A stretch of DNA of 64,000 nt from Amphibalanus amphitrite (taxonomy: Eukaryota; Arthropoda; Thecostraca; Balanomorpha; Balanidae): NCBI RefSeq assembly GCF_019059575.1, contig NW_024882965.1, positions 95,368-159,367 of the forward strand, written 5' to 3'. A program made the translations under genes and the position numbers. This document shows, piece after piece, positions 6,271-49,229 of the stretch; position 1 is the first letter of the stretch; every line of letters starts with the position of its first letter. The notes beneath the pieces are model-generated. The model searched no databases and had not been told where the DNA came from. It was given only the letters and a program-made list of their open reading frames with translations.

Positions 6271-8220
6271 CCCTCGCCGGCACAGGGGGCAACCATCCCC
6301 TAAGGTTTTTCGCGAATAACTCGCGTAAAAAGCGGCCGATCGCGACGAAACTTTCAGTCCCTCGCATTGATCAGTTTTACACCTACCCTGAAAATTTCAT
6401 GACCCTGAGCCAAATGACCTTTGACCTGTGACATGCTTTCCGAGACCATCTTTGGCCGAAATCGCGATTCGGCCTATGTCGGCTCGCATTAGCCGCGCGT
6501 TTGCAAGCTTTTTGTGGTTTCAAACGTTCAAACATGTAATTTGATGTTGCTCCCATGCATTTGGGTGGTGTCAAGGTCACCTGAAGGTCAGGTCAGTTCA
6601 TTGACCTTTGGTGACCTTGGTCCCTTTTTCGAGTTTTACATGTTTCTAGGCTAGTTTTGAAGCTAAATTCTAACTCAGCAACGATTTGAACATTTACGAA
6701 GTAGTTTGGTGCCTTCGTAACATGTTACGAAGCTGTCAGAGGCAGTTGACACGTATTTCGAATACCAGTTACGACCCCTACTGGTTGACCTGACCTGACC
6801 TGACCCGACCTGGTCTAAATGCTCAATGACATCATCTGTGATCAAAACTAACACGATATTCGTGATCGGCACCCCGGGAAAATCACATAGCAGCCACACA
6901 ACCCTCGCCCCGTTGGGGGGCATTTTGGCCCCATCTGTGGTTTTTCCTAAATAGCAAGAAAACGGCGGCGCGCAGCGCCGCCAAATTTTCAGTACCTTCT
7001 CGGGCATCAATTTGACACCTTCACACCAAATTTCAAGTCTTAGGTCAACTTAGGTCAGGAGTTATTGAGGTCAAACTGAGGTCATGTTCGAGCAAAAATG
7101 TGCAAAAAACATGCAATCTTGAAACGCTCACCAAATTTACAGTTACCAAGCAATTTCAAAGTTCTTTATATGGTCTAGCAGACAAAAAGCGGCGCTACAA
7201 AACTGCTATCTCGGAATTTCAAAATTTTGGGTTTTTGACCCCAAAAAATTAAAAAAATTGATGTTTTTAGAAAAACTAAAAAAATCCAAAAAAATCCGAA
7301 TTTCGAAAAAAACCGAAAATATATGATAGTCCCTGTGCTCTTCTATATACATACCAAGTTTCAGATCGATATCTCGTTTTTTGGCCAAGTTATAGCGAAA
7401 AAACTGTTCAAAAATGATGACGTCAAATTTTTGAACTCAATTTTTAGCGATTCTAGACCACGTAGGGCAAAACAAAGACCACCATTGAACTCCCCGTGAC
7501 GAACTGCATCGATTCGATACCCATTTTATGCAAAAATATCAACTTTGAAATTTGACCTAATTTGACCTGACCTTGACCTGACCTTGACTTGACCTTGACC
7601 AAAACGTGACCTAAGCTGTCCCAAAAGTCTGCCTGACCCACATAATCGCATTTGTCATGTAAAATGGACCATAAAATATGCATCACACGACACTTTCATA
7701 TTGTGACCCCCCAGTGACCTGACCTCTGCGACCTGACCTGGTATCAGTGACCTCAAATAGCAAAATATGTGTTTGAAGAACATTTCCCCATCGATGATTT
7801 TCAATGAAATGCATTTTACTCGATTTTACAACGCATTTCTTGAAATGCCTGTAAACGGTGAAAATTCGACCTTTGACCTGACCTGTGACGTCATCGGTTT
7901 GACCTAGGTCAATAAAATTGGGTCACAAGGTAGTTCCCTGATAGGGCTATCCAACACCGTTTGCCGCTTGTCGCTAGGTTGCGTGGTTCTCGAGATCTTA
8001 GGGGGGGGCAAATTGCCCCCCCCCCCAACGGGGCGCGTTGCTCGGCAGAGCCCAACGGGGCGCGGGTTAACGACTTTCTAACAGGTCCCGATTTTCCCGA
8101 CTTCTGGGTCATTGACCTGACCTGGAAGGTCAACCGATGACCTAGGACCTTAAAATTGGGTATCATCGGCTTCTTCTCGTGACGGACAGCACGCTCGTTT
8201 TTTCCGCGAAGCTCTAGCTC
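6271..8220 (+). mobile_element. TTAA-type MITE, family 1, copy 2, split by a nested element
   Basis: It starts CCCTCGCCGGCACAGG after TTAA (6267-6270) and is collinear with copy 1 up to the CAGCCAC near 6891-6897. It is then interrupted by the 6902-8066 element and resumes at CGACTTTCTAACAGG (8071). It loses similarity after GCTCTAGCTC (8220), about 100 bases short of the expected right end, so it is truncated. Without the insert it would be about 780 bases, against 889 for copy 1. Confidence 0.78.
6902..8066. mobile_element. Nested TTAA element, 1165 bp
   Basis: The left end is CCCTCGCCCCGTTGGGG (6902-6918). The right end contains CCCAACGGGGCGCGGG (8051-8066) followed by TTAA (8067-8070). 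The left flank is ACAA, a degraded TTAA. A second CCCCAACGGGGCGCG lies slightly inside the right end (8023-8037). A G8/C11 hairpin is at 8001-8026. It is rich in TGACCT half-sites, with a run at 7551-7600, and has TGACGTCA at 7418 and 7886. The uninterrupted sequence at 5864-5874 in copy 1 shows where it inserted. Confidence 0.75.
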
Positions 8221-25682: not shown

Positions 25683-25706
25683 GATTGAGACGAGTCCCCT
25701 CCACTT

Positions 25707-25845
25707 GGACTAGTGTCAGTTGGTCTAGTATCGTTTGGGCTAGTTCATTTGGTCTAGTGCTTTATTTGGTCTAGTGCCACTTGAGCTAGCTTCATTTGAG
25801 CTAGTGTCATATTTGGTCTAGTTCATTTGTGCTAGTTCCCGAAAT
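25707..25845 (+). repeat. Left subterminal array of the MULE
   Basis: About eight copies of a short unit, (T)TTGGTCTAGTGCC or TTTGAGCTAGTGTC, roughly 15-22 bases apart. It is inverted relative to the right array and is probably the transposase-binding region (inference from MULEs with tandem-repeat ends). Confidence 0.8.
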
Positions 25846-26071
25846 TTATTTGAAATATATAGTTCCCTGAGATGCTCGGCCATGTTTACCATGAAAAAGT
25901 TCGGTCTCGTTGTCGTATATATTTCGTTCGTTCGATTATGTATAACACACTTCAGATTTCAGATGTTCGGATGTTGGTGTACTTAGTTCAGATGCCCTTT
26001 TGCCGGAACAAACATATATAGAGTTTCTTCAAACCTTAAAGGCAACCCGCCCAAATCTTGATGTTTCGGAT

Positions 26072-27502
26072 TTAAACGTTCAGTGTGATAGCATATCCCA
26101 CGCCACGAAGGAATTCCGCCCGCTCTATGGTGCCTTCCGCTAGTCTGGTTATAAGTGTTGTCAGGCGTTTATTCATATTTTTAACAGTTTTCTTGGATTT
26201 TTGAACGTCATGACCCGCCTTAAACCTGAAAAGATCGTTAACTTGTAAATTTTCTTCACGCTGGAGCGCTGCGAAGCAACGGAAGATGGAGGGATGGGGG
26301 GAATCCAGCATGGCCTGTATCCCCGATGCCATCCCTCAAGCTTGGTTGTTCGGGGTATGCCAGATATGGTCCTTTCCTTAACATTCCACATTTCTTTTGG
26401 AATTTGGGGGTTTCGGCGAACCCCTCTGCGCCCTTGCCTTCCTATATATGTGTCCTCAAAGTAATCATAAAGGTCTGTTAATCCCTCGATGGCAATTTGC
26501 TCGACATATTCTTGAAGTTGTTCAAAAGCTTCGTTCACATTTTCAACGTCAAGGAAGGCAAGAGCGCAGAGGGATTTCACCGCTTCTCGAACTTCCGGTT
26601 GATTAATGTAATTTTCCGTTAGGCCAGCTCCCTGAACTTTCCGCCAAACCGCTTGAGTTAAATGAAAGAAACAGCCTGCTACACTCACTTGAGGAAATTC
26701 AGTTAACAAAGCGCGCTTACTAGCTAACTCAAAGTCCATGATGCAAAGATGAGGCGCAAGATTTGGGCGAGCATCCTTTAAAATTTGGAAAAGCTTTATA
26801 TATGTTTGAGTAGTTTTGTTGGGCAAAAGGGCATAAATGCAAGGAAAGACGTGTCCATTTGGCCCGCCAATGATAACATGTATGGTATATAACTGAAGAA
26901 ATAAAGTAGGTGCCACTTTGAATGTTCCGTCCATCATCCAAATGTTATTTTTGCTTAATTCGTCTAGCATGACTTCGGAAGAAAAGACTATCAGTCTGTC
27001 GTTTCCATCACCTTCATTGTCATACAGCAGGAAACGATGCTCTTCTTCTCCCCGTTTTGTCGTTTTGTACTTCTCTGGAATTATAATGCCTGACCTGTTG
27101 AGTGGCGCTACTTCATGTCCGATTTCTGAATGTTTTCGTTTTCTTTGGATACGTTGCGAAATTGCCTTTCTAGTTGGAGCTTCTGTTGTGGCTTCTCTAC
27201 TCAAATTCATATCACTTATAATTCTTCTTGGACGCAAATTTGACGTTTCTGCCTGTTCCATGGCTTTGTCCAATGCCGAAACAACTTCAACTCTTGCCGG
27301 AACTGGGGGGGTGGTTGTGAATTTGCCTAGTAACAACTTGTCTTTCGGTATGATATCGTAATGATGTTGAAACAGATCCTTTACATCCTTTGTTTTCGCA
27401 TCGCCAATTTTGAGTGGTAATATTTGAAGTAGGTATTCTTTCGGTAGACAAAACCTTCGAAGCTTAATTTGTCCCCACCCCTTGATGACTAAAAATTTCC
27501 AT
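26072..27502 (-). pseudogene. FLYWCH-MULE transposase, frameshifted
   Basis: This DDE transposase would excise and insert the surrounding element. A likely start ATG lies at 27502-27500, and the stop is at about 26072. The N-terminal FLYWCH zinc finger can be followed through two frames: FEGFVYRKNTYFKYY, then WRCENKGCKG and HNHPP. The largest frame (27336-26173) holds the MULE catalytic core: MDGTF with the first Asp (residue 136 of this frame), IMDFELA (Asp 201), the C-x2-H signature CFFH (222-225) and LEGWH, which holds the likely final Glu (334). The C-terminal helical part (HPSIFRCFAAL onward) lies in another frame. Total would be about 475 residues, normal for animal FLYWCH-MULEs. About four frameshifts, all next to short homopolymers, separate the pieces: near 27475, 27408, 27308 and 26322. 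Either the copy is dead or the assembly has indel errors. Confidence 0.88.
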
Positions 27503-27706
27503 AGCTACAGCCGATAACCCGTAATTTGCGTCTATCACACAACAAATTTACCTCGTTTCAGTCGAAACAGAAAAGGAATGAAAGCTGCCTCGTGAAGTTC
27601 TGTAAAAAAAAATAAAATAACCGCAAAATCTTTTCCTCGTGAGTCTAATTATTGTGCCAAGCATGATAATACACATCCATCATGGAAATGAGTCTGCTGA
27701 AAGCTA

Positions 27707-27857
27707 GACGAAATTACGGCACTAGACCAAAGGCACTAGCTCAAATGAATGGCACTTTGGCACTAGCTCAAACGAAACTAGCCAAACTGGCGCTAGACCA
27801 GCTGAAGCACTAGACCAATTGCACTAGCTCAAAAGGCACTAGACCAAATGATGCTAG
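27707..27857 (-). repeat. Right subterminal array of the MULE
   Basis: Copies of GGCACTAGACCAAA and GGCACTAGCTCAAA, the reverse complement of the left array units. Spacing varies from 14 to 30 bases. Confidence 0.8.
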
Positions 27858-27884
27858 ACGAAGAGAGTGGCACCCGATTGAGAC

Positions 27885-44791: not shown

Positions 44792-45037
44792 CTGGCTCCC
44801 ACACCTATAGCCTGGCTCCCAGATCCTAAAGTCTGGCTCCTAACCCCTATAGCATAGCTGTCAAACCATATAGCCTGGCTCCCAGATCCCCCAAAGTCTA
44901 GCTCCTAGATCCTATAATCTGACTTCTAGATTCTATAGTCTGGCTCTAATATCCTATAGTCTGGTTCCCAGATCCTATAGACTGACTCCCAGATCCTAAA
45001 GTCTGGCTCCCAGATCCTATATTCCGACTCCCAGACC
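44792..45037 (+). repeat. 21-bp minisatellite, about 11.7 copies
   Basis: Units follow CTGGCTCCCAGATCCTATAGT, with most copies 20-23 bases long and one to five changes each. An in-frame period of 21 makes an artificial open frame on the minus strand (44926-45480). Confidence 0.9.
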
Positions 45038-47084: not shown

Positions 47085-47250
47085 CGAGATCCATTCAGAT
47101 CATAGATCCAACCCCTCAATTTTGTCGAGAGATCTACTGGGATCATAGATCTGACCCTTCAATTTTGTCGCTAGATCCACTCGGATCATAGATCTGGCTA
47201 CCCAATTTTGTCGTGAGATCCATTGGGATCATAGCTCATAGGTGCTCAAA
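47085..47250 (+). repeat. 45-bp GATC-rich array, left end of the hAT element
   Basis: Units of the form GAGATCCACTCGGATCATAG, then ATCCAACCCCTCAATTTTGTC. About 3.5 units, period 45. Confidence 0.85.
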
Positions 47251-49019
47251 ATGTTAACAACTTTCTTTCATAAGAAGTTATGAATACCAAAGTATGGTTA
47301 GAAACAAACAATCTTATACAAAGAACATATTAGTAAAGGCATCCAGTTACATTATACAGAATACAAAATAAAGGAGGCTCATGACGGTCACAACTTGAGA
47401 GAATTGAGTTGAGTGACATGAAGATTGTTCACAGTTCACATACCAACAGAAAAGTTTGCATTAACAATTAACATAGAGGTAAGTCAAAGTAATGACTAAT
47501 GAACAATACATAACTAGGTACCTACCACATCACAATTCATGTTAGAATCTACATAATGATATTGATAAGACAATCTCATTGATCTTGCATTAGACAACCA
47601 TGAGGCTTTCCAGTTTCCAGCTACCACAATTGATTGATAAACAATAAAAGATGATACTGACACATGTGGCTTGGTTAGGTAAAGGTATTTCAATCTATTG
47701 AAATAAATATTTGATAAAATAAACTGAGATATAAACAAAAGTACAAAAATATTCAACACCCTGCGGAAGCGATGGGAAGCGAAATATCAATTGTAATGGC
47801 CTTGGATATTTACCGTAAAATGATTATTCAGTATCTGAATTGAACTCGTGACGTCATTTCAAATAATAAATGAGCTAGGCGTTCTACCTTCGAGTATAAT
47901 GAAAATAAATAAAAAATCAAACTGGAAATTCAAAAGTCTGGAGCTTTTTTTAAAGAATGTTCATTTTTTTCTGCCTCACATAATTTTACGATACGATTGT
48001 TTGTGAATATCATCTTTGTAGCGTTGAATTTAATGACGTAAACGTAAGCTGAAACGGTATTACATGGCCTTGAGCGGTGTGCGCCTTGCATCTTTATTTT
48101 ATTCACTTTTCAAAAGAATAACAATATCTTACGTCATTAGTTTAAAGGGCCTTTTACGGGGAATCTTTTGGAATCATTACGGTCTTGGTCAAATGAAGAT
48201 TTTTCATTGGTCAAACGATAATGACGTAATAAAACCATATTACCAAAACGTGAGCTGTGAATTTCGTTTGTCTTTTTTTGGGAGGCTCTCTCATAACAAA
48301 AGCACAGCATGGCACCACACGTGGCAGTTGGCACCTGGTGCCAAAAGTGGCCAAAAGTAAGTAATCTGAAGAAGTTGATGCCATTTTTGAACTTGTAATT
48401 TTATTAGGAAAGTATTAGAGGTTGGTTGTTATTCTTACTAAATCGAAATTGTGTTGCACATACTAATAGCTCATATGAACATTCTGGATTCAGATTGGGA
48501 TTTCATACCTGGCAGAAGTGGATTGCTGGATTATTTTTAACAAAACTGACCTATTTGGCTTCCAGGTTTGATTTCCTAACATCTGTCCATAGGCGGCAGA
48601 ACAGGGGGGGGGGGTGGCACCAGGGTACAGTGCCCCCCATAGATTTTGGCATTTTAGCATTAGCCCTACTGGCGTTGCAGAAAGAATGGGACCAAAATGA
48701 AAATCTGCAGTGCCCTGCTGCCACTGCATCTGTCTGTACTGTTTGTTCATTGAATTAAAGTGGCTGTAGCTTGTTGATAAGATTGTCATCAGTGCTGTCA
48801 TGAAAAAGTTACAATTGGTCACAAAAAGTAGCAATATGCATGTTCTTGGTTTATTTTTAAATGTAGTACAAATGTTGTTTATTTAAATTCAAATTTAATG
48901 ATGATACCTAATGATCACAAGTGGTCTTAACCAATAACCATGTCCACAAGTGATAATTCTCAATTGTATTGCACTGTAAGGTGTACAATTATGTAGGATA
49001 AGGGTTTCATTGGCTACAT

Positions 49020-49229
49020 GTTGTCGTGAGATCCATACAGATCATAGGTCCTCCACAAATTTTTGCCCGCTGGATCCACAGAGATCATAGATCCGACCCC
49101 TAAATTTTGTCGAGAGATCCATTCAGATCATAGATCCAACCCCTGAATTTTGTCGAGAGATCCACTCGGATCATAGATCCAACCCCTCTATTTTGTCGAG
49201 AGATCCACTGAGATCATAGATCCAGCTCT
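49020..49229 (+). repeat. 45-bp GATC-rich array, right end of the hAT element
   Basis: About 4.5 units of the same repeat as at 47085-47250 and in the same orientation, although the terminal repeats themselves are inverted. The second unit is the most diverged. Confidence 0.85.

Follow-up and report, generated by a model that had tools for sequence, protein, structure and literature searches.

The window analysed here, a stretch of 64,000 nucleotides from Amphibalanus amphitrite, contains a Mutator-like element (MULE) of 2184 bp at positions 25692-27875, with boundaries that agree to the base with those predicted in an earlier sequence-only reading. That reading had described a FLYWCH transposase between inverted arrays of short units, the whole bracketed by an identical 9-bp target duplication, and each of these components was recovered. 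The parts of the element are as follows:

25683-25691, no strand: left copy of the 9-bp target-site duplication, GATTGAGAC, identical to the right copy
25692-25709, plus strand: left terminal 18 bp, ending before the first CTAG core
25710-25835, plus strand: left array of nine CTAG-centred units, with cores at 19, 34, 49, 63, 80, 95, 110, 127 and 141 of the element
26009-26060, plus strand: within the 3' non-coding region, an inverted copy (81%) of the MULE-domain coding that the element carries at 26757-26808
26072-26335, minus strand: C-terminal transposase part, in a frame different from that of the MULE domain
26653-26943, minus strand: MULE domain of the transposase (PF10551), which falls within the open frame 26176-27504
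27311-27488, minus strand: coding for the FLYWCH zinc finger (PF04500), divided among frames in the window copy
27704-27857, minus strand: right array of ten CTAG-centred units, with cores at 19, 34, 49, 63, 80, 95, 110, 137, 151 and 169 from the right end
27858-27875, minus strand: right terminal 18 bp
27876-27884, no strand: right copy of the target-site duplication, GATTGAGAC, identical to the left copy

The limits of the terminal segments follow from the CTAG positions, and the FLYWCH stretch combines a Pfam match at 27311-27418 with a remainder inferred from open-frame copies of the element. Elsewhere in the window, similar 43-bp units form two tandem arrays 1.8 kb apart (47086-47234 and 49014-49224), and positions 44792-45035 hold 11.6 copies of a 21-bp unit.

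The arrays at the two ends of the element consist of units of about 15 bp, centred on CTAG and placed in inverted orientation. The first seven cores of the window copy lie at the same distances from either end (19, 34, 49, 63, 80, 95 and 110), and the 18 bp from the end to the first core are likewise equal on both sides, as they also are in the related families B and C wherever a duplication defines the end. Complementarity between the arms 25691-25809 and 27758-27876 amounts to 77% across 119 nt, and the element has the inverted ends of short tandem units that characterize the Foldback type. With up to two mismatches allowed, the window has 13 occurrences of the unit TTGGTCTAGTGCC, of which 11 fall within the two arrays, against an expectation of 1.18 and a maximum of six in 100 shuffles; CTAG pairs 14-17 bp apart number 15, all of them inside the arrays, with 1.40 expected. 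A chance origin of the arrays was rejected on these counts. As units were located via CTAG, its presence in 19/19 units reflects selection, but the T found four bases before CTAG in all 19 was not a selection criterion. Outside CTAG, the left and right ends match at 50 of 68 positions.

In the window copy the PF10551 match (E 5e-16, 59.4 bits, cut-off 27.6) assigns the element to the MULE superfamily, and the PF04500 match (E 1.6e-4, 22.2 bits) is slightly below its cut-off of 23.6 and lies in a frame other than that of the MULE domain, with the FLYWCH, MULE and C-terminal parts each in different frames. The transposase is thus frameshifted, and the copy not autonomous, as assembled, although some of the frameshifts may be assembly errors. 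The sequence-only reading had called the element structurally complete, which is true of the structure (ends, duplication and domains) but not of the gene. Three other genomic copies (L012, L013 and L014) retain an open frame of 475-476 amino acids from ATG. The Pfam scan of open-frame copies covered L013 and L014, where the FLYWCH finger is entire (E 8.8e-10 and 1.7e-9; 39.0 and 38.2 bits, against the same cut-off of 23.6) and both FLYWCH and MULE score above cut-off, which bears out the proposed identity of the transposase. Both proteins have an N-terminal FLYWCH finger and a downstream DDE domain, the arrangement of Phantom/Muta transposases, and the spacing of the catalytic residues (D-D 65, D-H 24, D-E 134 and W-E 18 residues) is nearly equal to the 69, 24, 136 and 18 that we computed for Muta1 from the residue numbers given in PMC5225508. 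No relatives were found in viral contigs, phages or prokaryote genome contigs. In the non-coding 3' part, a plus-strand frame over the inverted MULE-domain copy (25946-26140) is still protein-like (15/25 identical, E 3e-6), and the 52 bases of 26009-26060 are unchanged in four of seven other full-length copies. The transposase coding also contains a 25-bp inverted repeat of 92% identity (26419-26443 and 26552-26576).

Searching the host's own genome (807.6 Mb, 2644 contigs) with the element revealed a family, here family A, at a minimum of 34 places, comprising the window copy and 33 others. Both ends were found in 25 of these, and the nine places with a single end are omitted from all two-ended comparisons. 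Exact target-site duplications of 9 bp flank 18 of the two-ended copies and 8-bp duplications flank six, with none at L027; these lengths fall within the 8-11 bp of the MULE superfamily. L009 and L010, both with 8-bp duplications, have common flanks (214 nt on one side and 1000 on the other), thus leaving 24 independent sites. Besides the window copy, at least seven near-full-length copies (93-99% identity) begin at query positions 8-10 and stop at 2193-2194, the predicted element ends, and many shorter copies accompany them. The sequence-only reading had named similarity extending past 25692 or 27875, and other insertions lacking a 9-bp duplication, as evidence against it. Neither objection was borne out: similarity stops at both positions, and 24 of the 25 two-ended copies have an exact duplication of 8 or 9 bp. 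The recent insertion that it had proposed is confirmed too; pairwise substitutions among the eight full-length copies amount to 0.18-1.23% (4-17 substitutions between the window copy and the other seven), and a 159-bp left end is identical in 16 places, window included. Paralogous empty sites, in which the joined flanks align through the junction, were identified for three insertions, L025, L029 and L041; the best of these alignments are about 90% identical and that for L029 has small gaps near the junction. One such repeat copy without the element lies in the window itself, at 1364-1622.

Four copies at four different sites (L035-L038) have one internal deletion in common, which fits movement in trans. 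Copy L041 is 158 bp long and consists of ends alone, 71 bp from the left and 88 bp from the right with a one-base overlap, flanked by an exact 9-bp duplication; it may have jumped at this size or shrunk later. The 18 nine-bp duplications display a weak palindromic target preference, GTW...WAC, with G outermost at 21 of 36 duplication ends (P 1.8e-5, post hoc, the base having been picked after looking). Longer copies carry inserts that were considered as captured host genes, an idea that we set aside, several of the 11 inspected having inverted edges like those of nested mobile elements. The 1.2-kb insert nested in L016, which has inverted edges (CCCGCG...) and is probably another mobile family, is 76% similar to window positions 7194-7923.

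The series of CTAG positions, referred to below as the ladder, is unaltered at the left end in 20 and at the right end in 19 of the 25 two-ended copies, and eight single copies (L014, L023, L027, L029, L034, L037, L040 and L041) have units or cores lost or shifted. A sister family, B, was identified by protein search, with a transposase 59% identical in amino acids over query positions 10-488 (L053). Its ends were compiled as nine end rows from six loci, with L054, L063 and L071, which are one flank, counted as one site. The first seven A cores are also present in eight of the nine rows, six of which have the complete ladder 19, 34, 49, 63, 80, 95, 110, 127, 144, 159, 174, 191, 208 and 223; the plus end of L053 lacks 49 and has 175 instead of 174, the minus end of L070 lacks 191, and in the plus end of L056 the first eight cores are visible. 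B ends were located with a pattern that already demanded CTAG at base 19, but independent support for this position comes from duplications read by eye just outside the ends, exact 8-bp ones at L056 and L070 and a 9-bp one with one mismatch at L053.

An ungapped comparison of the A and B arrays over about 110 bp, made with one A copy and two B copies, revealed identity at 28/28 core positions (27/28 for one B end) and at 33-36 of 68 other positions, while slid registers reached at most 0.29. When A is compared with the ends of L070, the Fisher P for cores against other positions is 1.7e-6 to 2.1e-7, to be read with the proviso that array positions are not independent. Preservation of core and spacing amid such drift suggests that the transposase reads the array in register. 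The ladder could instead be merely inherited, if the families split recently and their arrays have not yet acquired indels, in which case selection on the register would be unneeded. Common ancestry of A and B does predict the same starting array, and their unit numbers (nine and ten in A, 14 in B) differ at the inner side only; inheritance alone, however, sits poorly with non-core positions that have drifted to 33-36/68 while the cores remain intact, and with the unit or core losses and shifts that do arise, as in the eight copies of the young family A, and we consider it unlikely. Still less probable is that folding back, into a hairpin or cruciform, is the main function of the arrays in place of protein binding along a ladder. 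The arms are indeed inverted and complementary, and composite inverted ends mark Foldback-type elements (PMC3169594), but a match of 50/68 outside CTAG would make a poor long hairpin, each end retains its own sequence across copies (the left end being identical in 16 places), and it is the cores and spacing that are kept. The split transposase might suggest an ancient, fossil insertion in the window whose flanks match by chance, but this is scarcely credible given the exact 8-9-bp duplications at 24/25 two-ended copies and the 4-17 substitutions that separate the window copy from the seven others of full length, family data that already contradict it.

Helical phasing was evaluated as the cause of the uneven step order and rejected: when the observed steps were permuted 20000 times, 9562 of the orders reached the two-face score of B. 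The mean step of the B ladder is 15.69 bp, which is 1.5 turns of 10.46 bp, and among 20000 random ladders built from steps of 13-17 bp, 320 attain its two-face score; phasing may thus explain the mean step, but does not explain the order of steps.

Genome-wide, CTAG at successive steps of 14 and 17 occurs at 377 places, compared with 33 for control steps of 16 and 14 (both figures count copies, not families) and 517 for a backward control of the same search with the pattern GATC. Among 100 listed of the 377 places, 24 belong to A (in nine cases the left array read inward), 37 to B, 11 to a third family, C, 26 to an unrelated repeat and two to others. Family C retains part of the ladder and was discovered via the 14,17 steps; its other spacing is independent of that discovery. 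An exact 9-bp duplication, ATCCGGTAC, flanks one C copy (C11:672.8-674.6 kb). Counting from this duplication puts the start of the first core at base 19 on either side (as CTAT on one of them), and the steps that come next are 18,15,14,17 and 15,14,17. Next to a C array on C29 lies a stretch that matches the protein at 45% over query positions 368-488. A B-like copy on C128 has an 8-bp duplication with one mismatch, and no duplication was found at the C copy on C68 or at the B-like copy on C1. The CTAG array is absent from L072 (34% amino acid identity) and L073 (42%), the two more distant relatives in which the ladder was checked; the other relatives lie at about 35-53%. The repeat CTAGTTATAGGATCC..., which has the 14,17 steps too, was set apart, as only 3-5 of its 23 spacer positions match the A, B and C types. 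A repeat with CTAGTTATAGGATCCTAG... (for example at C2:698997-699031), to which 26 of the 100 listed places belong, has the same 14,17 CTAG steps with different letters.

Taken together, the element at 25692-27875 is very probably a member of a young multi-copy FLYWCH-MULE family of the Phantom/Muta type with Foldback-like composite ends, in which the arrays most likely act as FLYWCH binding ladders. A mechanism is proposed where transposase from open-frame copies excises the element by means of its DDE RNase-H-like domain, by analogy with Muta1, which no longer transposed in yeast once its DDE motif was changed (PMC5225508). Insertion would follow with a stagger of 8-9 bp, and frameshifted and deleted copies would have moved in trans. 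Each unit of the end arrays would present a putative site for the FLYWCH finger with CTAG at its centre, neighbouring units being separated by some 1.5 helical turns and the first core beginning 18 bp inside the cleavage point, and several transposase molecules could assemble along the ladder. The sequence-only reading had suggested that the arrays may be how the transposase recognizes the ends; the conserved ladder is established here, and binding in register is predicted from it. We further put forward, as a proposal about evenly poised between right and wrong, a spacing code in which fixed CTAG distances (19, 34, 49, 63, 80, 95 and 110, with 127 too in the A left end and in B) would be read in register by a transposase multimer, and the letters between cores and even the terminal motif would be free to drift. 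If this is true, the ends of one family might in principle serve the transposase of a related one.

Foldback (FB) of Drosophila and TU of sea urchins also have inverted ends, short tandem units and 8-9-bp duplications, with arms longer than those of family A. Galileo, of the P superfamily, has tandem units inside long inverted ends, as does family A, but its transposase is of the P type with a THAP finger whereas that of family A is a MULE with FLYWCH (PMC3688188). Sites in the Galileo ends are bound by the THAP finger, which is a precedent, in another kind of transposase, for a finger binding to end repeats; the Foldback and Phantom repeats as binding sites were called untested in that account from 2013 (PMC3688188). 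Closer is Tm1 of root-knot nematodes, which, as described in PMC3169594, likewise has composite ends with 13-15-bp tandem units and unlike motifs at the two outermost ends, duplications of 8-10 bp, mostly 9, in 45 of 53 complete elements, and a protein of 496 amino acids with FLYWCH and MULE that its authors assign to Phantom, all resembling family A. The Tm1 unit, CGATTCAGTATCCGC, is without CTAG and its FLYWCH is without the last histidine, unlike family A, and unit number differs between ends and between elements (PMC3169594).

The Muta MULEs of Aedes aegypti, placed in Phantom by PMC6446971, are described in PMC5225508 as having a FLYWCH finger in 13 of 14 families and a DDE MULE transposase of about 500 amino acids, as here, with 8- or 9-bp duplications and many deleted derivatives, like family A. 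The Muta1 gene has two exons, whereas a single open frame suffices in family A, and Muta1 insertion showed little or no sequence preference (PMC5225508), whereas the nine-bp sites of family A favour an outer G. The 145-bp terminal inverted repeat (TIR) of Muta1 consists of a 10-bp terminal motif and nine 12-bp repeats with 3-4-bp spacers, and Muta5 has nine copies of a 15-bp repeat (PMC5225508). Of the 12 MULE families with long TIRs in this mosquito, 10 have array ends (PMC5225508), a feature that the sequence-only reading had regarded as unusual. As FLYWCH-MULEs with array ends and 8-9-bp duplications are known from Muta and Tm1, family A is a new family of a kind already known. In the titles and beginnings of abstracts of a library that covers few subscription papers, we found no report of a conserved end-unit register across MULE families; the Phantom/Muta-type element itself is known, and the ladder is the part not found in print. 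With its young copies, open frames, shared deletion derivatives and 158-bp ends-only copy, family A provides a natural test system, and a sister family that keeps the core and spacing but not the rest makes the question of binding accessible to direct experiment.
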